From positions 1 through 28,815 of the forward strand of contig NYZA01000130.1 of assembly GCA_002686955.1 (NCBI GenBank): a stretch of 28,815 nucleotides of DNA, read 5' to 3'. This document shows, piece by piece, positions 3,392-28,815 of this stretch. Position 1 is the stretch's first letter, and the number at the start of each line of letters is the position of its first letter. The position numbers and the translations under genes are program-made. The DNA is from Gemmatimonadota bacterium. Its GTDB lineage: Bacteria; GCA-2686955. The notes beneath the pieces are model-generated. The model searched no databases and was not told where the DNA came from. It saw nothing but the letters and a program-made list of their open reading frames with translations.

Positions 3392-3406
3392 CCGCGCTCT
3401 TCCCAG

Positions 3407-4408: not shown

Positions 4409-4460
4409 CGTCCGTCCTTTCACAGCAGGCCCATTCTCGGACCTCATCCGCCCCATCTGC

Positions 4461-7050: not shown

Positions 7051-7053
7051 GTC

Positions 7054-8356: not shown

Positions 8357-8391
8357 CTCCACGCTCACCAAACCCCCATCGCTTAAGGGTC

Positions 8392-8560
8392 CGCGCAAAA
8401 ATAGCTTGTCATTTGGCATCCCATCTGCACCACATCTCCGGCCGATCAGCGAGCCCCGAAAGCCTCGAAGTAGCGCTACTACTCCTCCGGCTTCGGAGCT
8501 CACCGATCAGCCAGATCTGCGACACATCTGGGCGCCAAAATGACAAGCTATTCTCGCGCG
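8392..8560. repeat. Second palindromic MITE-like element, interrupting the TrkH/KtrB gene
   Basis: Inverted arms of 23 bp with two mismatches lie at 8392-8414 and 8538-8560, with a perfect 15-bp core AATAGCTTGTCATTT (8400-8414 and 8538-8552). The palindrome continues inward imperfectly: GGCCGATCAGCGAGCCCCGAA on the left matches the reverse complement of the right arm with few differences. The centre contains the self-complementary AGTAGCGCTACT. No protein is encoded. Its sequence is unrelated to the element at 3123-3310. A CGCGC direct repeat at 8392-8396 and 8555-8559 could be a target-site duplication but is low complexity. The right end supplies the stop codon that ends the ktrB fragment. 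Confidence 0.75.
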
Positions 8561-9147: not shown

Positions 9148-9176
9148 CGCGACCGCTGAATCTGATCTGGCCCTGA

Positions 9177-10457
9177 TTATGTCTTCAGCTTCTTCTTCCG
9201 GGCCGCGGGGAAGAGCACATTGTTCAGGATCAAACGATAGCCGGGGCTATTGGGATGTAGATTGAGATCGGTGGGGCGATCGTGCACGAGATGCTGCTTG
9301 TCTTCCGGATCATGGCCTCCAAGGAAGGTAAAGGTGCCCGCTCCCCGATTACCGTGGAGATACCGAACACGGTTGGTGCCGGCGACATCGCCCAATATCA
9401 CCACGGAGTCCTTGATCAGATCGCGACGATAGCTCGTCGTCTGCCCATAGAAGCCGCGAACTCGAGAGACGTGATTCTGCACCAACATCGCGGCCACGGG
9501 ATCGTAGCGTGGCGCAAAGTCGAAGAGCCGAAAGTCCATCGTCGTCTTCTTGAGGCGCGGATTGTTGACCTGTTCGACGTCGATGCTGGACACGGAATTC
9601 ACGGCCGCATTCGTTTCTATCGTGAAACCGTCGAACGCGAAAGTAGCGAGGAAGTCGAGCTCCTCGTTGGCCGTTGCGGAAGGAGGCGAGCCATCGTAGG
9701 GCAGGTCGGCGATGTCGGTTTTCGTAGCGGCCAACGCAACGTCTAGCGTTTCCGTCGCGGAGCACATGGCGAAGAGAAAGCCGCCCTCTTCCACGTAGCC
9801 GCGGATCGATCGGGTTACAGCTCTTTTCAGGTCCGGCACCGTTTCGAAACCGAGTCGGGCTGCTGCCTCGTTCTGGCGTTTCCGTTCCTGTTCGTACCAC
9901 GGAGAGTGGCCATGGCTGGAGTGGAACTTGCCGAGTTGGCCGGTGAAATCCTCATGGTGCAGGTGGAGCCAATCGTAACGGTCGAGCTCGCCGGAGAGGA
10001 CTTCGTCATCCCAGACGGTAGCATAGGGGATGTCGGCATAGGCGAGAGCTAGGGTAACTGCATCGTCCCAAGGCAGTTTGTGTGGAGGTGTATAGACCGC
10101 GATCTCTGGCGCCTTTTCGAGCAACACCGTTTCTCGCTCCGATGATTCAATCGCCTCCAAAAGAGCAAGCGACCCCGAAAGCGATATCGGCTCGACCGTA
10201 ACTCCTTGAAGGCGTGATCTGGCGACGATGTTTGAGTTGGAATCGAGAAGGAACGACCCCCCCCGGTGCCCCAAGAGCCAGCGGACATCATCGCCGCGGG
10301 AGAGGGCGAACCATGCAAGCCCATAGGCCTTGAGGTGGTTATGCTGCGATTGGTCCATGGGAACAAGAAGCCGTGCGACGGGGGAGGATTGTGCCCTGAT
10401 GCCCAGTCCGACCAACGCCAAGACGAGCGCGACTGCATGCTTTCGATGGCGTTTCAT
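9177..10457 (-). CDS. Secreted protein of the family often mislabelled 'asparagine synthetase B'
   Basis: The 426-aa protein starts at ATG 10457 with a signal peptide (MKRHRKHAVALVLALVGLGIRAQ). The mature part is globular, with motifs I recall from a conserved Bacteroidetes/Gemmatimonadetes family: LVPMDQSQHNHLKAYGLAW, YTPPHKLPWDDAVTLALAYA, YDWLHLHHEDFTGQLGKF, GGFLFAMCSATETLDVAL, FTFLGGHDPEDKQHL, and the ending LHPNSPGYRLILNNVLFPAA with a basic tail. From memory, database entries for this family often read 'asparagine synthetase B', but I see neither an N-terminal catalytic Cys nor an SGGxDS ATP-pyrophosphatase loop, and the protein appears exported. The strand order partly resembles a ThuA/class I amidotransferase-like fold, which is weak inference. 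Function is unknown. It diverges from the subtilase gene, and the longer frame to 11093 is antisense to that gene. Confidence 0.85.
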   Translation of the reverse strand: MKRHRKHAVALVLALVGLGIRAQSSPVARLLVPMDQSQHNHLKAYGLAWFALSRGDDVRWLLGHRGGSFLLDSNSNIVARSRLQGVTVEPISLSGSLALLEAIESSERETVLLEKAPEIAVYTPPHKLPWDDAVTLALAYADIPYATVWDDEVLSGELDRYDWLHLHHEDFTGQLGKFHSSHGHSPWYEQERKRQNEAAARLGFETVPDLKRAVTRSIRGYVEEGGFLFAMCSATETLDVALAATKTDIADLPYDGSPPSATANEELDFLATFAFDGFTIETNAAVNSVSSIDVEQVNNPRLKKTTMDFRLFDFAPRYDPVAAMLVQNHVSRVRGFYGQTTSYRRDLIKDSVVILGDVAGTNRVRYLHGNRGAGTFTFLGGHDPEDKQHLVHDRPTDLNLHPNSPGYRLILNNVLFPAARKKKLKT

Positions 10458-10482
10458 GGGATATTCCGGGGAAGCGGAGAGC

Positions 10483-10511
10483 TTGCGAGGCCGGTGCCGG
10501 GAGCCTATAGT
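10483..10511 (+). promoter_or_regulatory. Sigma70-like promoter for the subtilase gene
   Basis: TTGCGA at 10483-10488 (four of six to TTGACA) and TATAGT at 10506-10511 (five of six to TATAAT) are separated by exactly 17 bases. Transcription would begin near 10518, leaving a leader of about 60 bases before the ATG at 10578, which has GGAGA eight bases upstream. The site lies between two diverging genes, as a promoter should. Core lineage preferences are unknown, so this rests on consensus match alone. Confidence 0.5.
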
Positions 10512-10577
10512 AAACACCTCGCGCACGATACACCGCTCCCCGGCCTGCGCCGTGGGGCTGATTCTGGAGACACACCC

Positions 10578-13523: not shown

Positions 13524-15437
13524 TTGTGGTTGGTCTTGCTAAACGCGGTCGATGCGCAGGAACGAGCTCTCGGGACCGATCCGGTCCAGATTCGCGTGGA
13601 AGAGCCGAACACCCGGGTACCGTGGACTCCTCTCGCCTCGATTCTCTGCGGCGACTCTCCGCACAAGATCATGGTCGGCGGGCTCTTCTACTCCGGTCGA
13701 TACGACCAGCACTTGCCCAATGAGTTGACTCGGATCAGCCGGTTTCCTCAGTTCTGTTGGTTTCGGCTCGAACCCCGCGAGCTTCCCGACGGCACCACAG
13801 CGATCCCCGCGCTCTACACCGGAATGCCCTTGATGGCGATGGAGTTCGAGGGCGCGGCTTGCGGACTTGTCTTTCCACCGATGGTGGGATCTCCCGGATT
13901 TCCCCTCGGCCTGAGACTTGTCGACGACCGGCGCAGGTTGGAGCTGGGCCTGGCTCCAAGCTGGCGGATGCTCGAGAAGGGCGTGGAGAACTACAACGCG
14001 TGGAACCTCGAGCCCCTTGAATCCGTGGGTGATCTGGCGCTTCCCGCTGGTCCTATCGATTTCGAGGTGCAGAGACTTGACGCACCCTCTTTGGACGATC
14101 TCGTTCAGAAGTACTTGTTGGAGATCGCCGCTCCTCGGGACCGATCGATCGATCTTCCCCTCCATGCACGCAAAGCCCTCGAGGCGCTCTACCAGTGTTT
14201 CGACATCAAGACCGGCCTCTTCCTGGAGTGGCGACGACGCGATGGGCGGGGGTTCAATTCCGGATTCTACGGCCTGCCGACCTTCAACACTCTGATGGCG
14301 GATCTTCCCGCCTTCGCGCGCAACGGGGGCTCGGAGACGCGGCGGATGGACGCCGCGGCGATCAGCAACTTCACCTTGCCCGAAGCGTCCGAGAGTGTCG
14401 GCGGAGGAAGAGTGTGGCACAACACGTTTCACCGCGCATGGGGCGAGGATGATGTACGTTTCTTTACGCATCTGGGGACCGGACTGGCGGGCTATCCGGG
14501 CGGTCAGGCAACGATTCTGGGAGCCGCGGCGGAGCGTCTGGCCGCGGAGCGCGAAAAATCTCGTACACTGGCGCCGTTGATTACCGCCGGTGCGACATGG
14601 CTTCGCTCGGTGCAGTACTCCGACGGCTCATGGGGCAGGACTTACCGCGTGCTTGCCGAAGAGCTGACGGCGATGGAGCTCGAATCCGGCTGGGGAACCG
14701 CCTCGGTGGGGGCTACCGCGGAAGGAGCGCTCGCGCTGATGCGGGCTTCCACGGCTCTCTCCGGGCCGGCGGGAACGGCGTCGCGAAGCGCGGCGGAGAG
14801 GGCGCTACAGTGGATCGCGGACGAGCTTTCAGGGAACATTCTCATGGGCGGCTACCTGAGAGACAATCGGCTAGAGGAGAGCGACGGAATCTCGGCGGTG
14901 CCGGTGATCGAAGCGAACCTCGTCGGTTCCGAAATGGGATTGGAGGGCGCCTCGGAGGAGTTGGCCTTGCGCGTGGGTCTCTACCTGGCGACCTGGCAAC
15001 GCTGGTGGCACCGCGAGTACCCTTCGGTCGATCCGCTTCAGATCTCGTTCAAGCCGCGAATCGCGCCGTGGGAAACCGTGCTCGCGGCCCGAGCGTATGC
15101 TCTGCTATACGCTGCAACGGCCGACGACTTTTGGCGACGGATGGCGACGGAGGCCTTCGTGCCGATCGAAGTCGAGAGCGAGCTCGAGGGGTATTCCGAA
15201 GCGATCTACTACGATGAGAAATGGGGCTTTCACGCGCACCCCATGGGAACCACGTACGTTCCCGCGGCTGTGCTGCGCTTTCTTCGAACCTGGTCCGAAA
15301 CGACACATGTTCCCATCCCGGTTATTCGTGTCGACGTACGGCCGCATCGCACCGGCCGAACAGCTCGTTCCCTATCACGCGGAGCTCTGAGACGACTGTC
15401 GGCTCTGTTTAGGCAGCAACACAATCGTGACAACTGA
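13524..15437 (+). CDS. Probable secreted protein of unknown function, likely alpha/alpha-toroid fold
   Basis: The 637-aa frame has strong coding character but no family I can name. The N-terminal 200 residues look beta-rich (GGLFYSGRYDQHLPNELTR; PQFCWFRLEPRELPDGTTA). The remainder is helical, with Trp/Gly-rich turns such as ATWLRSVQYSDGSWGRTYR and ESGWGTASVGATAEGALALM. These resemble the QW-type turns of alpha/alpha toroids (prenyltransferase, terpene cyclase or glycosidase-like barrels). The start is doubtful: an in-frame stop lies at 13512, and the only starts after it are TTG (13524, 13530, 13536), none with a ribosome site. The first residues, WLVLLNAVDAQ, resemble the second half of a signal peptide lacking its basic N-region, so a frameshift near 13490-13525 is possible. 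It follows the protease by 60 bases and overlaps the helicase start by 11 bp. Confidence 0.75.
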   Translation: MWLVLLNAVDAQERALGTDPVQIRVEEPNTRVPWTPLASILCGDSPHKIMVGGLFYSGRYDQHLPNELTRISRFPQFCWFRLEPRELPDGTTAIPALYTGMPLMAMEFEGAACGLVFPPMVGSPGFPLGLRLVDDRRRLELGLAPSWRMLEKGVENYNAWNLEPLESVGDLALPAGPIDFEVQRLDAPSLDDLVQKYLLEIAAPRDRSIDLPLHARKALEALYQCFDIKTGLFLEWRRRDGRGFNSGFYGLPTFNTLMADLPAFARNGGSETRRMDAAAISNFTLPEASESVGGGRVWHNTFHRAWGEDDVRFFTHLGTGLAGYPGGQATILGAAAERLAAEREKSRTLAPLITAGATWLRSVQYSDGSWGRTYRVLAEELTAMELESGWGTASVGATAEGALALMRASTALSGPAGTASRSAAERALQWIADELSGNILMGGYLRDNRLEESDGISAVPVIEANLVGSEMGLEGASEELALRVGLYLATWQRWWHREYPSVDPLQISFKPRIAPWETVLAARAYALLYAATADDFWRRMATEAFVPIEVESELEGYSEAIYYDEKWGFHAHPMGTTYVPAAVLRFLRTWSETTHVPIPVIRVDVRPHRTGRTARSLSRGALRRLSALFRQQHNRDN

Positions 15438-17874
15438 ACAAGTGCATTTCGATCTGAGCAAGTTCAATCCCGGTTTTCCGCTCGATCGATTTCAGCAAGA
15501 TGCTATCGAATCGATCGATAGAGGCCGTTCCGTCTTGGTCTCCGCGCCGACCGGAACCGGCAAGACGGTGGTCGCCGACTTCGTAGTTGCCAAGAGCCTT
15601 GCGGAATCGAAGCGGGTTATCTACACAGCGCCGATCAAGGCCCTCTCCAATCAGAAGTACCGTGACTACACAAAGGCGCATGATCCCAAAAAGATCGGAT
15701 TGGTGACCGGCGATCTCGTCATCAACCACAATGCGCCGATGTGCATCATGACGACCGAGATCCTGAGGAACATGCTCCTGCAGGATCGGGATCGCCTCGC
15801 CGACCTTTCGCATGTGATTTTCGACGAGATCCACTTTCTCGCCGATCCCGAGAGAGGCACCGTTTGGGAAGAGATTCTGATCTATCTGCCCAAGCAGGTG
15901 CGGATTCTCGGCCTCTCGGCCACGATTCCCAACGACGAGGATTTCGCTGCGTGGCTGGGCTTCGTGCGTGAGGAACGAATCGACGTCGTGCGCGAGACCA
16001 GACGCGCCGTACCTCTGCGAATCCACCTCTTCAATCGACAAGCCGGCATGGTCACGAGGCGCGGTTTCGAGGCCCAGGCCAGACGCCATCGATCCTCAGG
16101 CGCCGCGAGAGCGCATCGAGGACGCGGTCGCGGCCGCCGGCGAAACGACCGAACTCGACACGATCAGATCATCTCCGAGATCGCACCGGATCTGCTTCCT
16201 TGTCTCTACTTCGTCTTCTTCAGGCGCCTGACCGAGACATTTGCAAGGCAGCTCGTGGACGAAATCGATCGGCCCTTTCTGAGCCCCGAGGAACGAGAGC
16301 GCACCGAATCGATTCTCGAGACCCGGTGCAGCGGATGGCATGAAGATCTGCTCAGAGACCGGGAGCTCTACGTGAACGGTGTTGCCTACCATCATGCCGG
16401 GCTCAATGTAATGCTGAAAGCGCTGGTAGAGGAGCTGTACGAGGAGCGTCTGATCAAGGTCCTCTACTGCACTTCGACTTTTGCATTAGGCATCAATATG
16501 CCGGTGAAGACCGTCGTATTCGACGGCATCCAGAAGTTCAACGGGCAGCGAATGCAACCGCTCACCGTGCAGCAGTTCATGCAAAAAGCCGGGCGAGCTG
16601 GACGTAGAGGGATGGATGAAGTTGGCCATGTGGTGGTCAGTCAGGAGTTCTGCGACTTCGAGCAGCATAAGGGCTCGTTCGATCGCTACGAACGGGGCAA
16701 ACACGAATCTGTACACTCGACTTTCAATCTGTCATTTAACTCCATCGTCAACCTGCTCAATGCATACGAGATGATGGAGATCCAGGATATCGTCAACAAG
16801 TCGTACAGGAATTTTCACCATCGGAGAGTCTTGGACGGCATAGGTGAACAGATAGAGGAGGTCCGAGGCAGTATTGCCAAGTTGAATGGCGGCATGTCGG
16901 CCGAATCGATCGATGAAGAGGACGATATCGACGACACGCCACAATTACGGAAGCGCGAAACGGCGATTCTTGGGCGCATTCAAGAGCGAATTCATGGAAG
17001 ACGAGAATGGTTGCAAACATCACCTCGATGGCAGGCGATCAACGAAGCAATGGAGTGCCCGGAATCGTTGCTTCGCCTGATCGCTGAGGAGCTGGCGGAA
17101 ACACCGAAACACCGAGCGGCGCGGGTGCGCAGGCTTCGGCGCAACATCAAGAGCGATTGTGCGGAGCTCCGCACGATTCGAGAGGCTCACCATCACCATC
17201 TGCACGGCGGCCATCCCGCGGATTCGAGCGAAGGAAGGACTGCCAAGCTCGAAAAGAGATTGGCCACGCTGCAACGCAAGCGTCGTCGTGAAGAACGACG
17301 CCTCTATCAGGGGCTATTCGAAAAGGTCCATTTTCTGCAAGAGATCGAGTACCTGGGGCCGGGCAATGAGCTCTTGTCCGGCGGAGAGATGCTGCGGCAC
17401 ATCCATATCGAAGAGGTGTTCGTCACGGAAATGGTGTTGGCCGATGTATTTGATGGACTGGACGACGCTGCGCTCTTCGGTCTTTTGGCGTCGGTCTGTT
17501 CCGATTTTCCGCGCAGGGCTGCGCTACGCACGAGGGCTCCGAATCAGTTGCGGGATCTGATCCGCTGGGTCGGGAAGATCCGTCGGTCGTACGTCGTGAC
17601 CGAAGCTGAACGGCTCAATGGAGTGCGATCGAGCTTCTCACCGGAGATCCTCTGCCTCGCTCGTTTGTGGGCCGAGGGTAAGACATTGATGGAGATCATG
17701 TTGTTGGTCGATAGCACGTCGGATATCAGCGGAGATCTGGTGTCGGCATTCCGGCGCGCGAAGGACTTGGCCAAGCAACTTCGAGATGTCTATCACGCCG
17801 AACCTGCGATGCAGACACAGTTGAGCAGGATTCTACGACAGGTGAGCCGCGACGAAGTCGAAGTCCTAGATTGA
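15427..17874 (+). CDS. Ski2-like DExH-box RNA helicase
   Basis: The 815-aa protein is a superfamily 2 helicase of the Ski2/Mtr4/HelY group, ATP-driven RNA unwinding enzymes. Motif I is APTGTGKT (40-47), motif II DEIH (133-136) and motif III SAT (164-166). RecA domain 2 has YHHAGL, TFALGINMPVKTVVFDG (351-367) and motif VI QKAGRAGRRG (386-395). After these come winged-helix and helical regions with charged coiled coil. The C-terminus resembles the DSHCT domain (ISGDLVSAFRRAKDLAKQLR). The start is GTG at 15427, 11 bp inside the previous gene, with only a weak ribosome site. Residues about 218-246, in the linker between the RecA domains, are Arg-rich and read better in another frame. The 3' end overlaps the histidine kinase gene tail to tail by 9 bp. 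Confidence 0.92.
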   Translation: MTTEQVHFDLSKFNPGFPLDRFQQDAIESIDRGRSVLVSAPTGTGKTVVADFVVAKSLAESKRVIYTAPIKALSNQKYRDYTKAHDPKKIGLVTGDLVINHNAPMCIMTTEILRNMLLQDRDRLADLSHVIFDEIHFLADPERGTVWEEILIYLPKQVRILGLSATIPNDEDFAAWLGFVREERIDVVRETRRAVPLRIHLFNRQAGMVTRRGFEAQARRHRSSGAARAHRGRGRGRRRNDRTRHDQIISEIAPDLLPCLYFVFFRRLTETFARQLVDEIDRPFLSPEERERTESILETRCSGWHEDLLRDRELYVNGVAYHHAGLNVMLKALVEELYEERLIKVLYCTSTFALGINMPVKTVVFDGIQKFNGQRMQPLTVQQFMQKAGRAGRRGMDEVGHVVVSQEFCDFEQHKGSFDRYERGKHESVHSTFNLSFNSIVNLLNAYEMMEIQDIVNKSYRNFHHRRVLDGIGEQIEEVRGSIAKLNGGMSAESIDEEDDIDDTPQLRKRETAILGRIQERIHGRREWLQTSPRWQAINEAMECPESLLRLIAEELAETPKHRAARVRRLRRNIKSDCAELRTIREAHHHHLHGGHPADSSEGRTAKLEKRLATLQRKRRREERRLYQGLFEKVHFLQEIEYLGPGNELLSGGEMLRHIHIEEVFVTEMVLADVFDGLDDAALFGLLASVCSDFPRRAALRTRAPNQLRDLIRWVGKIRRSYVVTEAERLNGVRSSFSPEILCLARLWAEGKTLMEIMLLVDSTSDISGDLVSAFRRAKDLAKQLRDVYHAEPAMQTQLSRILRQVSRDEVEVLD
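16078..16166 (+). other. Probable compensated frameshift patch inside the helicase gene
   Basis: In the helicase frame this stretch reads ARRHRSSGAARAHRGRGRGR and onward, with about 12 Arg in 30 residues, unlike the rest of the protein. In the +1 frame the same bases read DAIDPQAPRERIEDAVAAAG followed by ETTELDTI, an ordinary amphipathic acidic/helical segment. The original frame resumes at QIISEIAPDLLP. One base gained near 16076-16082 and one lost near 16163-16170 would explain this without disturbing the rest of the gene. It may be sequencing or assembly error or a genuine pair of indels. Confidence 0.6.
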
Positions 17875-20004
17875 TCTGCTTCGTACGTGATCGAGCAGTT
17901 CCTTGATGTCGGGAATTCGGAAGGGCTTGGTGAGCAGAAGGTCTCCGTGTGCCGGGGCGTCGACCGGCTCTACGACCGACAATCCGGTCGTGAAGACCAC
18001 TAAAACGTCGCCATTGCTCTCCTTGATGGTGGCCGCGAGCTCGACCGCCGAGCACTTGGCCATCTCGAGATCTATGAACACCAATTCGTGCTCGGTGGGA
18101 TCGAAGCGCTCCAGCGCGGATGGCCGCGAATCGGCTTGATCGGTTTCACAGCCGTGGAGTTGCAGCATTCTGGCCAAGACGCCGCTCACGTGGGAATCCT
18201 CATCGACCAGCAAAGCGATGAGGGGCTTCCTCTTTTCGGCAAGCTCCGGCGCCGTCTCGCCGGTTTCGATGGCGGCGGGGAGCGAGATCTTGAAGACGGT
18301 GCCTTCGCCCACTTTCGAGTCGACTTCGATTGTGCCGCCGTGCCCCCGGATGATGCCGGCGGAGGTCGATAGGCCGAGGCCGGTTCCCTTCTTGCCTTTC
18401 GTCGTGAAGAAGGGCTCGAAAACCTCATCTAGACGGGTTTCCGGGATGCCACTGCCGGAGTCGCGCACGTCGATGTGCACCGCCGAATCGATCGGACGAG
18501 CGCCGAGCTCCAGATTGCCGCCCTCCGGCATGGCGTCGAGCGCGTTAAGGACGAGGTTTATGAGCGCTTGACGGAGCTGAGAGACATTGCCCCGGACCGG
18601 AGGAATGGCGGGCTCGATCGTGGTGAAGACGTTGAAGGTCTTGCCGGTGGCGGAGGCGTCGACACTCCACCTCAATCGGGTCATCGCGATGACGTCGGCG
18701 ATTAGATCGGGCACCGCGAAAGAAGATTGCTCTTCGTCGGGTCGCCGCTCCACGAAGGAGCGGATCCTCTCGACCGCCTCGGCGCCGTCTTTGGCGGCCT
18801 TTTCGATGACGGCGATATCGGTCTTGATGTCGGGATCTTGGATCGCGATGTGCGCGATCTGAGCGCGGCCCAGAATCACGGCCAAGAGGTTGTTGAAATC
18901 GTGGGCCACGCCCGCGGCGACCATGCCGAGATCGGTCAGATCGTTGCGTCTCGCCAACATCCTCTCGACACGCCGGAGCTCGGTCACATCGATTGCCAGC
19001 GCCACGATGCCCTGCGGCTCCCCTTCGGGCGATCGGAGCAGATTCGATTCCATCAAGAGACGCTTGATGGTTCCATCGGGACGGGCCACCGCGTATTCGC
19101 CTTTGACATTCCCGGCGGCAATCGTGCGCGTAATGAAGCTCTCGGGACCGGCGTCGGTGCCGATCGGGCGCAATGAGCTCCAGAGCGTGCCGGAACCGAT
19201 CGCTGCTTCGGCGGAGATGCCGAAGAGCTCCTCGGACGCCGTGTTCCAAGTCGACACGGTGCCGTCGAGCTCAAAGGTGCTCACCGAGACCGAAGTCTGC
19301 CGGACCACCTGTGTATGCGCCTCTTTCGTGCGCTGCAGCTCCGCGGTTCTCTCGGTGACGAGCTCCTCGAGCCTCACATTTAGATCGCTGATCTCTCGCT
19401 CGCGCCCGCGAAGCTCGTCGCTCATGCGGGCGCTCTCTATTACGGCCGCGGCCTGCTCGGTAAAGAGGGCGAGCACCTCTTCGTGCTCCGCGCTGAAACG
19501 GGATGCTTGCTTTCGGTTGTCGACATAGATCACGCCACGGACCGCATCGCCCTTATTCCCTGGAGATTCGGCCCGAGCTCGCAGTGGAGCCACCATTACC
19601 GAACGCAGGTGAAGCGCCGCGACGCTGGGTGCGTCTCCGTACTCCTGGTCGGCCTCAGCATCGTCTACCCGTATCAGCTGCCCCGTGCGCAGCGCCTTCT
19701 CGATGACCGTGTGACTGATCTGGGATTCGGCCCGCTCGATCTCTTCGCGACGAACATTGTGCGCAACGTGGCAACCTAGCGCGCCATCGTCTCCCTTGAG
19801 CATGAGAAAGCCGCGCTCCGCTTCGGTGAGCTCTATGACCTGGTCCATGACGTAGGTCAGGAGCGCGTCGAAATCGTGTGTGGAGATCATCTCGCGCAAG
19901 ATCCCCAGGAGCCGGTCGAGCACTCGTGCGCGGCGCCCCTCTCCCAGCAGGGCATCGACCTCTTCGAGGTCCTCGAAGAACTGAGATTCCGGTTGCTTCG
20001 TCAT
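17866..20004 (-). CDS. Hybrid histidine kinase: GAF-PAS-HisKA-HATPase-receiver
   Basis: This 712-aa soluble sensor kinase has no membrane segment. A GAF domain spans about 40-195, followed by coiled coil (REREISDLNVRLEELVTERT), a PAS domain at about 235-345, and HisKA with phospho-acceptor His368 in GMVAAGVAHDFNNLLAVILG. The ATPase domain has the N-box Asn487 in INLVLNALD, G1 DSGSGIP (515-521), the F-box PFFTT and G2 GTGLGLS (540-546). A C-terminal receiver (about 595-708) keeps Asp645 (FIDLEMAK) and Lys693 (TKPF). This is a hybrid kinase with a His-to-Asp relay on one chain, but it has no output or HPt domain. Its ATG overlaps the stop of the Ser/Thr kinase gene (ATGA), so the two are co-translated. 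The GAF domain probably receives the signal, perhaps from its operon partner. Confidence 0.94.
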   Translation of the reverse strand: MTKQPESQFFEDLEEVDALLGEGRRARVLDRLLGILREMISTHDFDALLTYVMDQVIELTEAERGFLMLKGDDGALGCHVAHNVRREEIERAESQISHTVIEKALRTGQLIRVDDAEADQEYGDAPSVAALHLRSVMVAPLRARAESPGNKGDAVRGVIYVDNRKQASRFSAEHEEVLALFTEQAAAVIESARMSDELRGREREISDLNVRLEELVTERTAELQRTKEAHTQVVRQTSVSVSTFELDGTVSTWNTASEELFGISAEAAIGSGTLWSSLRPIGTDAGPESFITRTIAAGNVKGEYAVARPDGTIKRLLMESNLLRSPEGEPQGIVALAIDVTELRRVERMLARRNDLTDLGMVAAGVAHDFNNLLAVILGRAQIAHIAIQDPDIKTDIAVIEKAAKDGAEAVERIRSFVERRPDEEQSSFAVPDLIADVIAMTRLRWSVDASATGKTFNVFTTIEPAIPPVRGNVSQLRQALINLVLNALDAMPEGGNLELGARPIDSAVHIDVRDSGSGIPETRLDEVFEPFFTTKGKKGTGLGLSTSAGIIRGHGGTIEVDSKVGEGTVFKISLPAAIETGETAPELAEKRKPLIALLVDEDSHVSGVLARMLQLHGCETDQADSRPSALERFDPTEHELVFIDLEMAKCSAVELAATIKESNGDVLVVFTTGLSVVEPVDAPAHGDLLLTKPFRIPDIKELLDHVRSRSI

Positions 20005-23000
20005 TTGGTCTGCCTGATCTCTTGGCGCAGGTTCGCCAGAGCGGTCTTGAGCTCTCGTCGCAGGGCGCGCCGCCTCGGAGCCATCAGAAACGCTTTTCGG
20101 CGAGTCGAAGGCAGAGCCGCCCAGTCTTCTTGCAGGGTCTCCATGGCCGAGTACAGCACCGCCGCCGCCTTACCAGGCCGCCCAGAGACGAGGAAGGCAC
20201 GAGCGAGAACCCGCCGAGCTTCGCGTTCCTCTTCACGGAATCCTAGCTTGTTCGCGAGTGTGATCGTGCGTCGAATCCGGCGTTCCGCTCCGACCAGGTC
20301 ACCTTCTTCGAGACTGAGCCAGCTCCGCCAGCGCATCGTCACTACCCGATTCATCGTGACCTCACCGTCGTTGATCCGATCCAGCCGCTCCGTCACCTCT
20401 TTCATGGCGCGGGTATTGCCGGCGATCTCGTGGACCTCCAGCATGCGGGCGAGGATCGATGCCTCTAGCCTCTCGTCGATCTCGTCCGGCAGAGTCGTGA
20501 GCAGGGCGGTGGCTTCGCGCGCGGCCTCGTCGGCTGCGAGCTGCTTCGATATCGCGCGAATGAGTACGATACCGGCGCGCCCGTGGGCGCTTCTGCACTC
20601 ATCGTCGCCGGCCACCTGGATCGCGCCCTCGAAGGCTCGTTCGGCTTCGTCCAGACGCATCGATCGCAGCTCCGCCTCGGCCCGTAGGCTGATCGCGGAC
20701 CACGGTTCCGAGCCAACGGTGGTCCTGGCGCGATTCAAGAGATCGAGCGCTGTGGAATAGTCGCTCTGCTCGATGCGATAGGTCGCAATATTGCGAAGGA
20801 CGCTGGTGATCGGCAAGGGGTCGCCGCATGCCTCGTACGCCTCCAGCGCGCGGTGGAGCAGTCCGATCGCTCGGGAGACGCCCCCCCGAAGCCGCTCCAA
20901 GAGCCCCCAGTTGTTGAGAACCGATGCTTCCCCCTCTCTGTCGCCGATTCGTTGGAAGATCCGGTGCGCTCGCCTGAAGGCGTCGACCGATCCGTCCTCA
21001 TCGGAGAGTTCGGCACGGCACATTCCCAGGCGATTCCAGGCGCTGGCCCGGAGCGCGAAGGGGATCTGCTCCTCCAGATCGAGGGCCCGCTGGTGGTGAT
21101 CGGCCGCTCCCGCCGCGTCGAGCTCACCAAAGGCCAAATCACCACGAATCAGCCAAGTTCTGGCCAGGCCTTTCCAGTCTCGCGCCCTACGAAACAGGTC
21201 GGCGGCTTCTGCCAACTTGGGCAGTGCGTGTGAGGGGCGACCCGCCGCTCGCTCGACCTCGGCCGATTCGCAAGTTGCTCGGGCGCGCAGTCCGACGAGC
21301 TCGACAAGAGCCGCCGACGCTTCCGCGCGAGAGACATGTTCCCGGGCCTCGTCCGTCCGACCCTGCCATCGTGCGATCTCGCTGAGTGAGCGCTGCGCTT
21401 CGCTTTCCGCGGAATGGTCTTTCGCGGCGACCGCCTTTTGCGATAGTTCGACGAGCAGCCTGCGAGCGAGCTCGTATTCATTGCGAGCGATGCGTGCCTT
21501 GGCCATCAGGGTCAGCGCATGTCTGTGCTCCCTGCCGCCCTTGTCGAGCCGTCGAAGCAGGACCTCTTCGATTCGCTTCAAGGCGCGACCGGGTGCATGG
21601 GCTTCGATCGCCTGCTCGGCCGCGCGAAAGCCCGCCCGCACCGCAAGCTCTCGATCGTCTCCGCGCGCCGCGTGATGAGCCAGATCGGATACGGGATCGT
21701 TGGAATCGAGCTTGGGTGCGAGGAGCCGCGCGATCCTCGTGTGGTAGTCCCGCCTCCGAGCGGGGAGGAGCTTGCGGTAGAGGGTGCTTCGGGTAGCACC
21801 GCTTCGAATCGCCAGGCCGTCGCGTCTCTTCTCGACCAGGCCGAGTGCCGCCAGCTCCACGAGGTCTTCGGCGACGTACGCCCAGCCGCTCGCCTCGGCG
21901 ATCGCGTCGGCATCGAGAGGAAGATCCAACACGCTCAGGAACTTGAGGAGACGACGGAGTTTCGGCGGCACGGCGCGAATCTGTTTCAGGACGATCGCCT
22001 CGAGCGATGTCGGGAGCTGCGAAGGGTCCCGGTCGAAGAGAGAGCGGGGCCAGGGGCCGGGGAGCTTCGCGGCGGCACGAACCGACTCCCGCACGAAGAG
22101 TGGCAATCCGTCGGTCGCCGCGGTGAGGCCGTCGACAAAGTGCCGCGGGATCGAATCGGTGTCGATCGAGACCATCTCCGCCACGTAGGATCGAACCTCG
22201 TTGCGGTCGAAGGGGCGCGGTGTGACCTGAAGTGTCTCTGTTTCTTCATCGAGCTCGGACAGGGCTGATTGTTCGCCATTCCCTTGCTGGGCCAGCACGA
22301 AAAGAGCCGGGGAATCGCGCCTCAGAGAGAAGCGGATCGCGTGGGCAATGAGGCCGAGGGTCTCTTCGTCCGCCCGATCGAGATCGTCGAGGAAGATCGC
22401 GATCGGGCCTTGCTTGGCGAGCCTTCGGATGAAACGCGAGATCCGCTCGTGGAGCTGGCGCGACGAGAGGGAACCGTAGCGTTCATGATCGGCGATGCGC
22501 GCAAACTCGCCGTCGAGCTCGCCACGCATTGGAGCGTCGATCGGCTGATGCGTGCCCTGGAAGGCCTTGAGAAAGAGCCCGTGGGGAGCCGGGTCGCCCG
22601 GTCGGGCATCGGCCCTGAAGACCCTGAGTCCCAAGAGCGTGGCTTCGGCCCTGAGCTCTTGCAGCAGCCGCGACTTGCCGACTCCAAGAGGGCCGGTGAT
22701 CAGGATCGGTCCCGCGGCCCTTCCGGTGGCGACGGCTCCCATGCGATCCGCGATCTCCGCGCGGGGCTCGTCCCGCCAGGTGTAGACCGGCTCGCTCAGA
22801 CGGGCCGCGGGATCAAGCTTCAGTTCGAGCTCGAGCCCCTCGATCCGCGCGATTTCGGTCAAAGTCCGTAGCGAGCTCGATGGGCGTTCCCGAGGGTCTT
22901 TCGAGAGCATTCGGAGGATCAGATCGCGCAGTGCGGCGGGGATCTTTCCGGAGCCGGCGGGAAAAGCAGGCGCAACTTCGAGATGGGCTCGCAGGGTCGC

Positions 23001-23636
23001 CGCGGCATCGCCTCCGTCGAAGGGAGGGTGGCCGACGGTCGACTCGTAGAGAACCGCCCCGAGCGAATAGAGATCGGCACGCTCGTCCGCCTCGTCGGCT
23101 CGGATCAGCTCGGGAGCGATGTAGCCGATGCTGCCCTTGGCGTGCGTGATTCGTCCCACGCCGACGCGCCCGGCGAGCCCGAGATCCAAGAGCTTGACCG
23201 AGGATGGGCGCCCAGGTCTCTCTTCGACCAGCAGGTTGGCCGGTTTGATGTCGAAATGTACGAAGCCCCGCGCATGGATGTGGGAGAGCGCGCGAAGAGC
23301 TTGGATGAAAAGCAGCAGCGTGCCCGGCAAAGGCAGGCTACGGGCGGACTCGGTGATTGGACGGCCCTTGACGAGGTCCATGGTGAACCACGGTCGCCGA
23401 TCGCTCGCTCGCCCGAACTCGTACACCCGTACGAGGTTCGGATGGTTCAGGGCGGTCAGGAGGCGAAACTCGGCGGCGAAGCTCGGATCGCCGGCGGCCG
23501 TGCGGCTGAGATGCTTGAGGGCGAGCTCTCGCCCCTCTCGCTCCGAGTCGACTACCCGGTACACATCAGCGGTCGCTCCCCTGCCGATGAGGGAGACGAT
23601 GCGAAAGCGCTCGCCGAATCTCGATCGATCCAACAA
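20001..23636 (-). CDS. Ser/Thr protein kinase fused to P-loop NTPase and TPR repeats
   Basis: The 1211-aa protein carries an N-terminal Hanks-type kinase (about 12-265) with glycine loop LIGRGATADVY (16-26), ATP-binding Lys41 in ALKHL, and catalytic loop HFDIKPAN (127-134) with Asp129 and Asn134 present. Also visible are the metal-binding DLG (151-153) and APE (174-176). The usual HRD Arg is Phe (HFD), so it is a non-RD kinase, perhaps not needing activation-loop phosphorylation. Next is an AAA/STAND-type NTPase with Walker A GPLGVGKS (315-322) and Walker B IAIFLDDLD (412-420). The last 600 residues are helical repeats of TPR type (ALDLEEQIPFALRASAWNRL and similar). The start is TTG at 23636, since no ATG or GTG is available; the ribosome site is weak. 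It sits 64 bases after the TPR/barrel gene and overlaps the histidine kinase by ATGA. Confidence 0.93.
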   Translation of the reverse strand: MLDRSRFGERFRIVSLIGRGATADVYRVVDSEREGRELALKHLSRTAAGDPSFAAEFRLLTALNHPNLVRVYEFGRASDRRPWFTMDLVKGRPITESARSLPLPGTLLLFIQALRALSHIHARGFVHFDIKPANLLVEERPGRPSSVKLLDLGLAGRVGVGRITHAKGSIGYIAPELIRADEADERADLYSLGAVLYESTVGHPPFDGGDAAATLRAHLEVAPAFPAGSGKIPAALRDLILRMLSKDPRERPSSSLRTLTEIARIEGLELELKLDPAARLSEPVYTWRDEPRAEIADRMGAVATGRAAGPILITGPLGVGKSRLLQELRAEATLLGLRVFRADARPGDPAPHGLFLKAFQGTHQPIDAPMRGELDGEFARIADHERYGSLSSRQLHERISRFIRRLAKQGPIAIFLDDLDRADEETLGLIAHAIRFSLRRDSPALFVLAQQGNGEQSALSELDEETETLQVTPRPFDRNEVRSYVAEMVSIDTDSIPRHFVDGLTAATDGLPLFVRESVRAAAKLPGPWPRSLFDRDPSQLPTSLEAIVLKQIRAVPPKLRRLLKFLSVLDLPLDADAIAEASGWAYVAEDLVELAALGLVEKRRDGLAIRSGATRSTLYRKLLPARRRDYHTRIARLLAPKLDSNDPVSDLAHHAARGDDRELAVRAGFRAAEQAIEAHAPGRALKRIEEVLLRRLDKGGREHRHALTLMAKARIARNEYELARRLLVELSQKAVAAKDHSAESEAQRSLSEIARWQGRTDEAREHVSRAEASAALVELVGLRARATCESAEVERAAGRPSHALPKLAEAADLFRRARDWKGLARTWLIRGDLAFGELDAAGAADHHQRALDLEEQIPFALRASAWNRLGMCRAELSDEDGSVDAFRRAHRIFQRIGDREGEASVLNNWGLLERLRGGVSRAIGLLHRALEAYEACGDPLPITSVLRNIATYRIEQSDYSTALDLLNRARTTVGSEPWSAISLRAEAELRSMRLDEAERAFEGAIQVAGDDECRSAHGRAGIVLIRAISKQLAADEAAREATALLTTLPDEIDERLEASILARMLEVHEIAGNTRAMKEVTERLDRINDGEVTMNRVVTMRWRSWLSLEEGDLVGAERRIRRTITLANKLGFREEEREARRVLARAFLVSGRPGKAAAVLYSAMETLQEDWAALPSTRRKAFLMAPRRRALRRELKTALANLRQEIRQTK

Positions 23637-23700: not shown

Positions 23701-26700
23701 TCAGAACTCGAAGCGTCCCCTGAGGTCGAGCCCGCTCTCGTGGTAGTCGGGCGCGAGGAGGCGGTGGAGTCGCATTTCGAGTCCGAGGGGACCGAGGGGG
23801 CGGGTCACGCGGAGGTCGAGACGGCCGACCGGTTGCACCGTGCTCGGATCGCCCGGTGCGTCCTCCACGCCGAAGCCGCCTTCAAAACCCCAGCTCCACT
23901 TCGATGGGGTCGGTTCGTCGGAGGCGGGGCGTCGCGAGAGGGCGAGTGTGCCCAGCAGGCGGCTGTTGCGGCGCGGGGAGTAGTAGTCCGGGGAATGGCG
24001 GTGGAAGCCGGTTAGCTCGATCTCGGCACCGAGGAGAAGCGATCGATACTGTGGACCGAGAGCCACGGTGGTTCGGGCTATTCCGTGCCAGAAGAAATTG
24101 TCGTCGCTCAGGCTGGATCCCTGCCCCGCGATTTCGAGCCGGAAGCGGTCGTCGAGAACCGAGGAGCCGACCCTGCCGACGAGGCCGCGGCGGGCCATGC
24201 CTTCGAGCACGGTGTCGAGGGTTTCGAGCCAGGGTCGGCTCTCCACGCCGATCATGAAGACGCTCTGGCTATCCCTGCGGAAGCTCAGACCCAGCCCTCC
24301 GTCGAGGCGGCTTCCGACCTCGGCGGCGCCCAGAGTGAAGCGCCCATCGGCCACCACGCCCCACCCGAGGGCGGCGGGATCGCTCGGGAAGCGGGCCGCC
24401 GCCACGAGGCTGTTCAGCGAAACCGATTCGCGATCCGCGTCGGTGGGGTCGGAATGGGTGATCCGCTCGAGATCGAGGTCGGCCCCCCAGAGCGATCCAG
24501 CGGCCAGATCGATCCGCTGCGTCGAGAGCCGCACGCCCGCCATCCGTCCGTGGCGGGTGAGCCCGATCAGGGCGCTTTCGGCGCCGAACTGCTCCGGCTC
24601 GCGCGCGTAGGCGAGGGGCATGCCGGGGCCTGGTTGGGGCGCGAGCGTGCCGAGGGCCACGCGCCGCGCTTCTTGCTCCAACTCGAGCCGTGCTACGAGG
24701 CGCAGGACCGCCTCGCGGGCCGGTCGATGCTCCGGCCAGCGCTCGAGCAGCTCCGAATGGCGATCGAGGGCGTGGTGGAGGTCTCCCCGCGCCTCTTCCC
24801 GCGCGGCTTCGGCTTCGATCTCGATATCGCTCCGTCCCCGGGCGCCCTCGACCAGCGCTCCCCAGGCATCGGTCGCTTCTTTGTGCATCCCGGCCGATGT
24901 GAGGGCACGGGCCTCTTCGATCGCCCAGTCGATGCGCCCGGGAGCATCGCCGAGCAGATGCGCGTAGTGAGGCAGCGATTCGGCGGGACGATCCGATGTG
25001 CGCAGCAGCCTCGCCAGGGCAATCCGCACCGGCCTGTCGCTCGGATCGGCGATGAGCAGCGAATCGAGAAGGGCCGCGGCGGCATCGGCTTCACCGGCGA
25101 GCTGGGCGGCGTGGGCGCGGGCGACGATGCGGTCGTGAGGCAGGGTCAGCTCTTCATCGACCCAGGGCGCCGGCGGGTGCGGGACGATGGGAACCGGCAC
25201 TCTGTCGAGATGGGCGAGCTCCAGGCGGGCCAGGCGGTCGGCCGGGTCGGCGGCGATCCGCCGGGTCAGTAGGTGGCGGGCACGCTCCGGCTGCTCGGCA
25301 CTGGCCAGGGCCCGGCAGCGAGGGAGGAGGGCGCCCCCGATCGCGGCCAACGAATCGGCTGCCAAGACCGCGCCGGCGGCTTGCGCCGAGGCTGCGTCGA
25401 GGTCCGCACGGAGCGCCAGTCGGGAATCAACTACATTCCTCCCAGTCCATGACTTCAAGCGAAGATAGGCTGCTTCGGCATCGCCCTGCCCCACGAGACA
25501 ACGGATTTTGGCCGCGGCGATTCGAGGGTCGTCGGGGTGCCGGCTCTCGAGGGGGTCGATGAGCGCGCCGGTCCCGCCGCCGTGCAGGGCGCGCCAGGCC
25601 AGGAGCTCGGCCAGGCGCCGGGCACGCTTCCGATCGTTCCGCTGCGCTTCGCAATGCCGCGCGAGGGTCTCGATCGCCGCCTGCGGATCGCCGTGCAGGA
25701 GGTGGAGCTCCGCCCGTAGCGGGGCCGCGGCGGTGGCGACCGAATCGGGGAGGGCGTCGAGAAGCGTGCCGGCCTCGCCCGCCCGGACCAGATCGATGTG
25801 CGCGCGCGCGCGAAGCAGATCGTCCTCGGGGGTGTCGAGCCGCCGCGGAGAACGGTCCATCAGCTGGAGCGCCTCATTCGCGCGACCGACCCGCACCAGT
25901 GCTTCGGCCAGCGCCCGGGCGACCGGTGGATGCGGCTCGGCCCGCCAGATGGGCTCCAACGCGGCCACCTGCTGAGTCGGCGCGAGCGAGTCGCTCGCCG
26001 CCAGGTGGGCCCAGGCGGAGGGCGCTCCCGGCCAGGGCGTGATCTCGAGAAGCTCGCGCCAATGTCCCTTGGCCAGCAGGGCCGCCCTTGCCGCCGACGC
26101 CAACTCGCTCTCCTCCGAACCCTCCTTTGCATTCGGCTGAGCTCTCGTCACGCGCGGCGCATGTGTCGCGACCAGGTTCGTGTCGCCGGCGGCCCACGCC
26201 GCGAGCACGAGGCGCCGCTCATCGCGCGCCGTGCCACCGGCCTCCACCAGTCCGCGCCAGATCTCCACCGCCTCCGCCGAGCGGCCGGCCGCGTCGAGCG
26301 CATCGCCGAGCTGCCGCGCGAGGTCGCTGTCCGCCGGCCGAAGCTCCAGCAGCCGCCGCAGCACTCCAGTCGGATCGAGATCGGCGTCGCGCCGTGCGCG
26401 CAGCGCGAGCCGCAGCACTTCGGCCCCGCTCTCTCCCGCCGCAATCAGATCGTCGAGTACCTGCGCCGCGCTCGCCGGCGCGCGGAGCCGCATATGCGCT
26501 TGCGCCAGCGCCATTCCAAGCCGGGCATCGCCGGGCGCATCCGCGAAGAAGGTCTCGAGGGGCCGAAGATCGTCGAGGCCGCGAGCGATTCGTGCCTGTG
26601 AGAGGGCGCGGCGCCTCTCGTTGCCGCTCCCGGGACCGAGCTCGTCGATCCGCGAGATCGCCTCGCGGTGCTCACCGGTGCGCACGAGGGCTTTCGAGAG

Positions 26701-27372
26701 TAGATTGCGCACGACCCGGTTTTCGGGCTCCGCGTCGAGGACACGACGCAGCTCCTTTGCTCCTTCGGCCGGGCGGCCGCTGCGCAGGAGGCTCGTGCCG
26801 AGATCTTGACGCACCCGCAGGTCGTCGGGGAAGTTGACCAGGGTCGCGAGCAGGTAGGAGAGCGCCTCTTCGTGATTCTCCGCTTTCGTCAGCGCCCGTC
26901 CCAGCTCGCGCGTGGCCCAATGGTCGCCCGGCCGCGCCTCGAGCTCGGCCCGCAGCTCGTCGACCGAGAGCTCTCGCCGGGCCTCATCGGCTTCCGCGGA
27001 TTGCGGCCCGGGAGAGGCGCCGAGCAGCTCAGCCGCAGGCCCGACCTCGCCCGTCGCCAGCAGGGCTTGCGCGAGGGCCTGCTCGTAGACCGCATCGCCG
27101 GGATGGGACGAAATCAGCCGTTGCAAGGTCGCCACCGCAACCGATGCGCGCCCCGAGGCGACCAGCGCCTGCGCCCGCGCGAGCTCCTCTTCGGAGGTGA
27201 GGGGCGCAAGGGCGGCCGCCGCATCGAAGCGACTCACCGCTTCTTCGGCGTTGCCGACTCGCGCCGCGTTGCGCGCCGCCTCGATGTAGACCGATCGCTC
27301 CAGGGGGGACGCCGCGGAGAGGGCGGCGGGGAGGAGGAGGCGGAGGATCGCGTGGGTGCTGATCGGGGTCAT
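23701..27372 (-). CDS. Outer membrane TPR protein with C-terminal beta-barrel (BcsC/PgaA-like layout)
   Basis: From ATG 27372 the product is 1223 aa. A signal peptide (MTPISTHAILRLLLPAALSA, then AS) leads into roughly 900 residues of TPR-like helical repeats (ELGRALTKAENHEEALSYLL; LARQLGDALDAAGRSAEAVE). The final 290 residues alternate polar and apolar residues as an outer membrane barrel does. They include PDYYSPRRNSRLLGTLALSR, like the YYSP motif in BcsC/PgaA-type barrels, and end RGRFEF with a terminal Phe, the usual barrel-assembly signal. BcsC, PgaA and PelB use this plan to pass exopolysaccharide across the outer membrane. The upstream frame to 27963 is Arg/Pro/Ser-rich antisense noise. 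It overlaps the preceding small gene by ATGA and belongs to the PilZ operon. The exported substrate is unknown. Confidence 0.88.
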   Translation of the reverse strand: MTPISTHAILRLLLPAALSAASPLERSVYIEAARNAARVGNAEEAVSRFDAAAALAPLTSEEELARAQALVASGRASVAVATLQRLISSHPGDAVYEQALAQALLATGEVGPAAELLGASPGPQSAEADEARRELSVDELRAELEARPGDHWATRELGRALTKAENHEEALSYLLATLVNFPDDLRVRQDLGTSLLRSGRPAEGAKELRRVLDAEPENRVVRNLLSKALVRTGEHREAISRIDELGPGSGNERRRALSQARIARGLDDLRPLETFFADAPGDARLGMALAQAHMRLRAPASAAQVLDDLIAAGESGAEVLRLALRARRDADLDPTGVLRRLLELRPADSDLARQLGDALDAAGRSAEAVEIWRGLVEAGGTARDERRLVLAAWAAGDTNLVATHAPRVTRAQPNAKEGSEESELASAARAALLAKGHWRELLEITPWPGAPSAWAHLAASDSLAPTQQVAALEPIWRAEPHPPVARALAEALVRVGRANEALQLMDRSPRRLDTPEDDLLRARAHIDLVRAGEAGTLLDALPDSVATAAAPLRAELHLLHGDPQAAIETLARHCEAQRNDRKRARRLAELLAWRALHGGGTGALIDPLESRHPDDPRIAAAKIRCLVGQGDAEAAYLRLKSWTGRNVVDSRLALRADLDAASAQAAGAVLAADSLAAIGGALLPRCRALASAEQPERARHLLTRRIAADPADRLARLELAHLDRVPVPIVPHPPAPWVDEELTLPHDRIVARAHAAQLAGEADAAAALLDSLLIADPSDRPVRIALARLLRTSDRPAESLPHYAHLLGDAPGRIDWAIEEARALTSAGMHKEATDAWGALVEGARGRSDIEIEAEAAREEARGDLHHALDRHSELLERWPEHRPAREAVLRLVARLELEQEARRVALGTLAPQPGPGMPLAYAREPEQFGAESALIGLTRHGRMAGVRLSTQRIDLAAGSLWGADLDLERITHSDPTDADRESVSLNSLVAAARFPSDPAALGWGVVADGRFTLGAAEVGSRLDGGLGLSFRRDSQSVFMIGVESRPWLETLDTVLEGMARRGLVGRVGSSVLDDRFRLEIAGQGSSLSDDNFFWHGIARTTVALGPQYRSLLLGAEIELTGFHRHSPDYYSPRRNSRLLGTLALSRRPASDEPTPSKWSWGFEGGFGVEDAPGDPSTVQPVGRLDLRVTRPLGPLGLEMRLHRLLAPDYHESGLDLRGRFEF

Positions 27373-27740
27373 GGCGCCGGCTCCAGAGCGTCTTGAAAGA
27401 GGGGCTCGGCGTCGTCGTGTCGCCCCGCCTCGGCGAGCACGAGTGCGAGCGAGATCTTTCGCTCCCCGCTCCCCGGCTCCAGCTCGACCAGGCGACGCAG
27501 CACCTCGATCCGCTCTTCGGTCGTCCCGATCCGGGCGATGATCGGGGCGATGCGGTCGAGGGTGCGAGCTTCGGAGCTCCGCCGGGCGAGGCGCATGAGG
27601 GGAGCGCGGTAGCCCGGGCCGGGGGGAGCTTCTTCGATGGCGCGATGCAGCGCGATTTCGTCGGCGCGACGCATGCGGAAGACCAGGCCGGTCTCGGCCG
27701 AGACGAGAATCGCGAGGAGAAGCGCGATATGTAACTTCAT
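27369..27740 (-). CDS. Small membrane-anchored TPR-like protein
   Basis: The 123-aa product has an N-terminal hydrophobic segment (LHIALLLAILVSAETGLVF, about 3-21) followed by basic RMRR, which suggests a signal anchor or signal peptide. The remaining 90 residues are helical, with one or two TPR-like units (RIEVLRRLVELEPGSGERKI; SLALVLAEAGRHDDAEPLFQ). It overlaps the PilZ gene upstream and the TPR/barrel gene downstream by ATGA at both ends, so it is tightly coupled to both. It may act in the periplasm as an adaptor between the inner membrane and the barrel protein, which is inference from position. I recognise no named family. Confidence 0.8.
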   Translation of the reverse strand: MKLHIALLLAILVSAETGLVFRMRRADEIALHRAIEEAPPGPGYRAPLMRLARRSSEARTLDRIAPIIARIGTTEERIEVLRRLVELEPGSGERKISLALVLAEAGRHDDAEPLFQDALEPAP

Positions 27741-28815
27741 GGCGCCGTCCTTTCGAAGTCCGCGCGTTCGTCCGCTTGCTCCTCGTCCTCTTGCGCCCCG
27801 TCGCCTTGCTTTTCGGCGAGCTCCTCGGCGAAGGCCTCGAGCAGCGGGTCGGCTTCGGCGGAGGACTCGATTTCCGCCAATGTGTCGCGGACGGAGGAGA
27901 GATCGACGCGTTGCGGCACCTGCTCCGCGGTTGGCGTCTCGGGATGATCTTCCTCTGGCTCATCCGTCTCTGTTGGCGTTTCTTCGATCGCCTCCGTTTC
28001 CATTCCTGCTTCTGAGTCGACTGCGGTCTCTGTCTCCATGTCTTCGTTGTTTCGTAGCCCCCTCTGCGTCATGGCATCATGATCGACATCCCCGGGATCG
28101 AGGAACAAAGGAGCGTCTGGGGGGCTGGCGATTCTGGCCAGCGCGGCATTGGGAGTGCTCAGATCGAGGCCGAGTCGCCAGGTGTTCTCTTCCTCTCTTG
28201 GCGAACACGAGACAACCGTTGCGTTGAGGTGCTCGGGAAGCTCGGGATGAATGACGCGGAGCCCGATTTCGGTTCCAACTGCAAGCTCGCGATCGGCCCG
28301 AAGTGCCGCACCGGTCGTGCTCACATCGATCGTGACGCCCCAGAAAGTGTCGCCATTGCTCCCGTCGGTCTGAACCGGGAGCTCGATTTGGTAGCGCGAC
28401 GCCCGGCGCTTGGCTGGACGTCGAACCGCTTTGCGCGCACACTCCATGGCGCGCGAACGCCGCTGCCGCAGACGCTCCTCTTCGATGGCGCGGGCGAGAT
28501 TGGCGAGTCCATGCAGCCCTTTCTTGTCGGGCCGCAAGAAGTAGCGCCACTCCCCTTGGTCGCCCCCGGGCTCTTCATAGACCACGGTCGCGCTCATCCG
28601 GAACACTTCGCCGAAGACGCGCAGGGCAAGATCGTAGCATCCACCCACTTCGAGCTCTTCCTCTACGAGCAGCCCGAGACCCTGCCCCCCGACGTCTCGC
28701 GCCACTCCCACCTTCGGATCGCTGCTCCCTTCCTCCGTCTTCGCGCCCGGCGGGGGGGCCGGCACGTACTCGACCGGGATCGCCTGGGCCTCTCGGCTGC
28801 CGCTCGCCGCCGCGG
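27737..28815 (-). CDS. PilZ-domain protein (c-di-GMP receptor), N-terminus cut by the right window edge
   Basis: The frame stays open to the window edge, and a PilZ-like beginning (SREAQAIPVEYV) lies upstream of the first GTG at 28765, so the gene continues outside. The visible 358 residues hold two PilZ-like units. The first (fragment residues about 6-90) has a degenerate DVGGQG in place of the binding motif. The second (about 133-225) is intact: RxxxR in KRRASRYQIELPV and DxSxxG in TIDVSTTGAAL, the two signatures that bind c-di-GMP. The last 120 residues are an acidic, probably disordered tail (METETAVDSEAGMETEAIEE). No membrane or glycosyltransferase region is visible. It heads the operon with the small anchored protein and the barrel protein, so c-di-GMP probably controls that export system. 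Confidence 0.88.
   Translation of the reverse strand, partial: AAASGSREAQAIPVEYVPAPPPGAKTEEGSSDPKVGVARDVGGQGLGLLVEEELEVGGCYDLALRVFGEVFRMSATVVYEEPGGDQGEWRYFLRPDKKGLHGLANLARAIEEERLRQRRSRAMECARKAVRRPAKRRASRYQIELPVQTDGSNGDTFWGVTIDVSTTGAALRADRELAVGTEIGLRVIHPELPEHLNATVVSCSPREEENTWRLGLDLSTPNAALARIASPPDAPLFLDPGDVDHDAMTQRGLRNNEDMETETAVDSEAGMETEAIEETPTETDEPEEDHPETPTAEQVPQRVDLSSVRDTLAEIESSAEADPLLEAFAEELAEKQGDGAQEDEEQADERADFERTAP

Follow-up and report, generated by a model that had tools for sequence, protein, structure and literature searches.

In cellulose secretion, the standard partner of the synthase BcsA is BcsB. More generally, synthase-dependent exopolysaccharide secretion brings together a synthase, a c-di-GMP receptor, and TPR repeats with an outer membrane pore (PMC7112194), and in the Bcs system activation and extrusion proceed by way of c-di-GMP and PilZ (PMC8461298). 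In the current study, we analyzed an entire contig of 28,815 nucleotides (C130; referred to below as the window) from a metagenome-assembled Gemmatimonadota genome (G000) that is 84.5% complete. Its right end carries three minus-strand genes, which encode, in this order, a PilZ protein, a small TPR protein, and a giant TPR-barrel protein. We conclude, with a probability that we put at roughly 0.78, that this cassette forms the 3′ portion of a synthase-dependent exopolysaccharide operon of cellulose-like type that is activated by c-di-GMP and has a membrane-anchored TPR protein in the position of BcsB.

The cassette consists of a 5′-truncated tandem-PilZ ORF with an acidic tail (positions 27737..28815), a gene for a small membrane-anchored TPR protein of 123 amino acids (27369..27740), and a gene for a 1,223-amino-acid exporter with an N-terminal hydrophobic or signal segment, a TPR array, and a predicted C-terminal beta-barrel (23701..27372), all on the minus strand. 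As the preliminary description had stated, the genes are chained by ATGA overlaps, and each of the two junctions is a 4-bp overlap. The home phylum is represented in our sample by two genomes, G000 and G001, each about 84% complete, and G001 carries the same three genes with identical order and overlaps (41% identity for the PilZ protein, 54% for the small TPR protein, and 45% for the giant protein); the arrangement in the window is therefore not due to chance. The genes 3′ of the cassette differ between the two genomes, the window having two kinase genes (for a Ser/Thr kinase-AAA-TPR protein and for a hybrid histidine kinase) and G001 a gene for a sulfatase-fold membrane protein, and so we take the three-gene cassette to be the conserved unit. 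The first of these kinase genes (20001-23636, minus strand) lies behind the exporter gene after a gap of 64 bp and overlaps by 4 bp with the second (17866-20004, minus strand), which encodes a GAF-PAS-histidine kinase-receiver protein; this pair does not adjoin the cassette in G001.

Relatives of the cassette outside the phylum came to light in a search of 386 genomes with a small-protein profile. Two matches in other families, one in G088 and one in G355, extended over most of the small protein, which places the cassette in 2 of the approximately 384 sampled genomes outside the phylum. Profiles of the barrel and of the PilZ protein revealed no cassette elsewhere in the 386 genomes; since these profiles also missed the G088 and G355 loci, the true frequency of the cassette may be higher. 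In G088, the operon (L112) encodes a 737-amino-acid GT2 protein with two PilZ stretches, a 149-amino-acid TM-TPR protein, a 1,624-amino-acid TPR-barrel protein, a GH8 glucanase, a sulfatase-fold protein, and a GT87 protein. In G355, the operon (L113) encodes a 731-amino-acid GT2-PilZ protein, a 140-amino-acid TM-TPR protein, a TPR-barrel across two adjoining frames (168 and 506 amino acids), and a GH8 glucanase, and the genes neighboring it are unrelated. Of the two G355 exporter frames (both on the minus strand), the first (6616-7122) matches the N-terminal part of the G088 exporter and the second (5091-6611) matches its C-terminal part; they represent either two genes or one shortened, split gene. 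Both synthases contain the DDG, DxD, TED, and QxxRW motifs and match the CelA model TIGR03030 (5e-109 for G088 and 2e-116 for G355), at scores far below its equivalog cutoff, and the GH8 glucanase matches BcsZ at 1.5e-41. The sulfatase-fold proteins encoded in the G088 operon and 3′ of the cassette in G001 are homologous (E value of 2e-57), a resemblance that counts for less because sulfatases are a broad family.

Cellulose synthesis (Bcs) is the nearest known type of system. The likenesses are a GT2-TM-PilZ synthase and a GH8 glucanase (in G088 and G355), a TPR-barrel exporter with a YYSP element, and predicted PilZ-based control by c-di-GMP. The differences are that the G088 and G355 operons lack BcsB and have a small TM-TPR protein instead, that the PilZ domain is in tandem, that the barrel falls below detection by the Pfam BCSC_C model, and that the G088 and G355 synthases score well under the CelA equivalog cutoff. 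PF03170, which detected the E. coli BcsB control, gave no match in the stretch from synthase to exporter in G088 or G355, and the window cassette likewise contains no BcsB gene. Because BcsB was not found within the operons and the exporter falls outside PF05420, we do not class the locus as a Bcs operon. At another locus (L114; G176:C5:375000-392000), a GH8-GT2-PilZ fusion (2541-5948, plus strand), that is, a BcsZ-BcsA fusion, is followed directly, without an intervening BcsB, by a frame for a TPR-barrel protein that extends to position 8143 and matches BCSC_C weakly.

The remaining described systems are more distant. The PNAG system (PgaABCD) also has a TPR-barrel exporter, and PgaA has a YYNP element at an equivalent distance from its end; however, no deacetylase is present here, and PgaC has no PilZ domain. 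Alginate synthesis (Alg8-Alg44-AlgK-AlgE) likewise employs a GT2 polymerase, a PilZ receptor, a TPR protein, and a barrel, whereas here TPR and barrel are fused, the PilZ domains lie behind TM helices and lack a periplasmic membrane-fusion domain, and no alginate modification genes were seen. Pel shares the giant TPR-barrel exporter, separate inner membrane parts, and control by c-di-GMP, but here PilZ stands in place of the PelD receptor, and the relatives have a GT2-PilZ synthase rather than PelF and PelG. A Pel operon was ruled out, since PelG (PF16933) has no match in G000 or G001.

The genomic context thus supports polysaccharide export coupled to c-di-GMP, much as first proposed. The link to polysaccharide comes from the G088 and G355 cassettes, which sit between a GT2-PilZ synthase and a GH8 glucanase, and the link to c-di-GMP is supported by the six GGDEF proteins encoded in the home genome; with eight more in G001, c-di-GMP signaling is plausible in both. 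The PilZ ORF is the only PilZ match in G000. No GH8 gene adjoins the cassette in the window, where the Ser/Thr kinase gene follows, or in the G001 contig.

The preliminary description had credited the PilZ protein with two domains and intact RxxxR and DxSxxG motifs, and we found this to be correct for the second domain. This domain (28160..28411, minus strand) matches Pfam PF07238 at an E value of 1.7e-14 and contains R136xxxR140 (RRASR) and DVSTTG, with RRSPR and NVSATG at the corresponding places in G001; the pattern of a PilZ c-di-GMP receptor (RxxxR plus [DN]xSxxG) is thus present in both, and the domain is predicted to bind c-di-GMP. The first, PilZ-like domain (28529..28813, minus strand), recognized by alignment to G001, has DVGGQG, but its RxxxR is incomplete. 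The window contig begins inside this domain, which is below Pfam detection in the window, while its G001 counterpart reaches 31.8 bits when scanned alone (cutoff, 22.5). Composition confirms the acidic C-terminal tail of 103 amino acids (27740..28048, minus strand), with 37 D/E against 5 K/R; the tail is missing from the G088 and G355 synthases.

It was also claimed originally that the double-PilZ protein is unusual in being separate and that no matching synthase is present. We find this difficult to maintain. In the window, no in-frame stop codon precedes the PilZ ORF, whose frame runs off the contig end, and the G001 frame likewise is open to its contig end. (The G001 contig, L022, stops at position 8253 in a G-rich stretch, so that both assemblies break at the same gene.) In G001, the ORF starts with two TM helices, the two PilZ domains that come next each have a Pfam match, and the corresponding slot in G088 and G355 is filled by a single GT2-TM-PilZ synthase. 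From these sequence comparisons, the PilZ ORF most likely represents the C terminus of a GT2 synthase of the BcsA/CelA type that is interrupted by the edge of the contig, and its apparent separateness is most likely an artifact of contig truncation. What ties the window protein to the G088 and G355 synthases is its position, its tandem PilZ arrangement, and the preceding TM pair (in G001); a profile comparison of this pair with synthase helices TM7-8 was not significant, and one BLASTP piece of it aligned to the synthase at the expected place (E value of 0.18).

Could the PilZ protein nonetheless be a separate, membrane-anchored tandem-PilZ subunit, an Alg44-like co-polymerase whose synthase is encoded elsewhere or just upstream? 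The G001 ORF does have an ATG ca. 40 bp from the contig end, ahead of the two TM helices, neither G000 nor G001 yielded a GT2 protein with features of BcsA, and alginate synthesis has just such a separate PilZ-TM subunit (PMC8461298). The order of parts in Alg44 is the opposite, however, with PilZ N-terminal to a single TM segment and a periplasmic domain (PMC8461298). Together with the open frames and the single synthase in the G088 and G355 slot, this makes a truly separate subunit unlikely in our estimation; it was the frame running open to the contig end that led us to prefer a truncated synthase.

Searches for the other half of the presumed synthase covered both home genomes. No BcsA-like catalytic half was present among their GT2 genes; tblastn with the G088 synthase against G000 and G001 yielded, as its best match, a PilZ-less 505-amino-acid GT2 protein in G001. 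No contig adjoining the window in G000 could be found by end overlap, and no convincing second piece in G000 corresponded to the N terminus of the G001 PilZ protein. Only the PilZ part of any synthase is visible in the window and G001, as the contigs end there. Given that the catalytic half was seen in neither home genome, we infer the synthase from synteny.

The small protein proved to be membrane anchored and TPR-like, as had been supposed, with one N-terminal TM segment (about residues 3 to 21), a conserved SAETG, and one TPR; the charges flanking the TM segment gave no decision as to the side of the membrane on which the TPR lies. A profile built from the small proteins of G088 and G355 scored 36.7 and 42.9 bits against those of the window and G001 (best shuffle, 7.5), and the reverse test gave 37.0 and 35.5 bits (best shuffle, 8.0). 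Judged by these profile scores, the four small proteins are homologous. From the gene order, we hypothesize that this small TM-TPR protein replaces BcsB. The true oddity of the locus is the lack of a BcsB gene and the presence of the small protein in its place, not a separate PilZ protein.

Of the TPR-plus-barrel architecture described for the 1,223-amino-acid protein, the TPR-rich character is evident and the barrel is well indicated, albeit not by a confident fold. The predicted outer membrane beta-barrel spans about residues 907 to 1223 (23704..24654, minus strand) and is recognized by a strand meander, amphipathic alternation, and homology to the G088 and G355 exporters. Structure prediction of the C terminus had been suggested as a check, and AlphaFold runs with two sequences returned low-confidence models, with mean pLDDT values of 48 for residues 747 to 1223 and 29.8 for residues 890 to 1223. 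The longer of these low-confidence models lays out 12 consecutive strands over residues 1003 to 1220 or thereabouts, the preceding ca. 95 residues being unresolved. The hydrophobic/polar alternation in the 12 predicted strands, scored in the window and at the aligned places of G001, was exceeded by none of 2,000 shuffles. Going by the model, a total of 16 strands is possible for the window barrel, which is the number in the barrels of BcsC, PgaA, and PelB (PMC12141448). A profile of the G088 and G355 barrels scored 18.1 bits against the window and 10.0 bits against G001 (best of 10,000 shuffles, 6.6), and the reverse test gave 9.0 and 10.6 bits (best shuffle, 5.4). At the level of sequence profiles, then, the barrels of the window and G001 are homologous to those of G088 and G355. 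Our assignment of a barrel is made on the 12 alternating strands and on homology to exporters encoded beside synthases, not on a confident AlphaFold model.

Other approaches to the exporter were less informative. A Foldseek search with the model of residues 747 to 1223 returned TPRs only, scanning the barrel by itself with Pfam and NCBIfam models was uninformative, and an MshA match in the barrel scan (0.001, in one member) was taken as chance. The window exporter has no match to PF05420 (BCSC_C); its TPR-barrel layout and YYSP element are like those of BcsC. Comparisons by hhalign with single sequences of BcsC, PgaA, and BcsA were not significant. The YYSP element (residues 1130 to 1133; 23974..23985, minus strand) lies 94 residues from the end in the window exporter, as does YFSP in that of G001. 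Similar elements occur in BcsC (YYSP), in PgaA (the YYNP mentioned above), and in several TPR-barrels adjoining GT2 genes elsewhere. Because a profile of the ends of BcsC, PgaA, and others did not beat shuffles in this region, the motif by itself is suggestive only. The BcsC element adjoins Tyr-1030, and the corresponding position is occupied by Asn in the window exporter and by Phe in that of G001. Tyr-1030 was compared with Tyr-1103 of PelB in a study of the latter protein (PMC12141448). Additional pairs of synthase and exporter were observed at L116 in G008 (5076-9568) and at L115 in G127 (8048-10830), where GT2 genes adjoin TPR-barrel genes whose products have a Y-aromatic-[SA]P element.

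We consider it very improbable that the cassette serves an unrelated envelope process, such as protein secretion, gliding, a pilus-linked function, or Slam-like surface protein export, as might be proposed because TPR and barrel also occur together in Slam (a weak TPR_Slam match was obtained), because the window encodes a subtilase with an FlgD/type-IX-like tail, and because its neighbors include two kinases (one Ser/Thr and one hybrid histidine kinase), since in two other lineages homologous small and barrel proteins are flanked by a CelA-like synthase on one side and a GH8 glucanase on the other and the downstream kinases do not accompany the cassette in G001.

If the cassette is indeed the 3′ part of a cellulose-like operon, the PilZ ORF would represent the last TM helices and tandem PilZ domains of a GT2 synthase. 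By analogy with BcsA, binding of c-di-GMP at the second PilZ domain would release the synthase, leading to polymerization and extrusion across the inner membrane. The TM-TPR protein may couple the inner membrane synthase complex to the periplasmic TPR scaffold of the exporter, and the 1,223-amino-acid protein would carry the chain along this scaffold, with its C-terminal barrel releasing the polymer, as in BcsC, PgaA, and PelB. The parts of this scheme that we infer are the missing catalytic half, the polymer, the binding of c-di-GMP, and the replacement of BcsB. Whether there is a wider family of BcsB-less cellulose-like synthases, spread over several little-studied lineages and having a one-helix TPR coupler between a tandem-PilZ synthase and a TPR-barrel exporter, is in our judgment an even bet. 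A full-text search with partial coverage, and hence only weak evidence of novelty, returned nothing on point for BcsB-less operons or for BcsA with two PilZ domains. With the PilZ synthase, glucanase, and TPR-barrel kept and a TM-TPR protein in the place of BcsB, such loci would amount to a natural experiment on BcsB function, and the coupling of synthase and exporter would become testable with a protein of 123 to 149 residues. They would also add c-di-GMP-controlled matrix export to a phylum that is represented here by two genomes.

Two further genes of the window deserve mention. The subtilase (10266-13463, plus strand) has carboxypeptidase-regulatory-like domains and, at its C terminus, an FlgD-like tail similar to the sorting tails of the type IX or FlgD type. 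Shortly after it (13524-15437, plus strand) lies a gene for a 637-amino-acid protein that gave only a weak squalene-hopene-cyclase-like match and is possibly an alpha/alpha-toroid enzyme.
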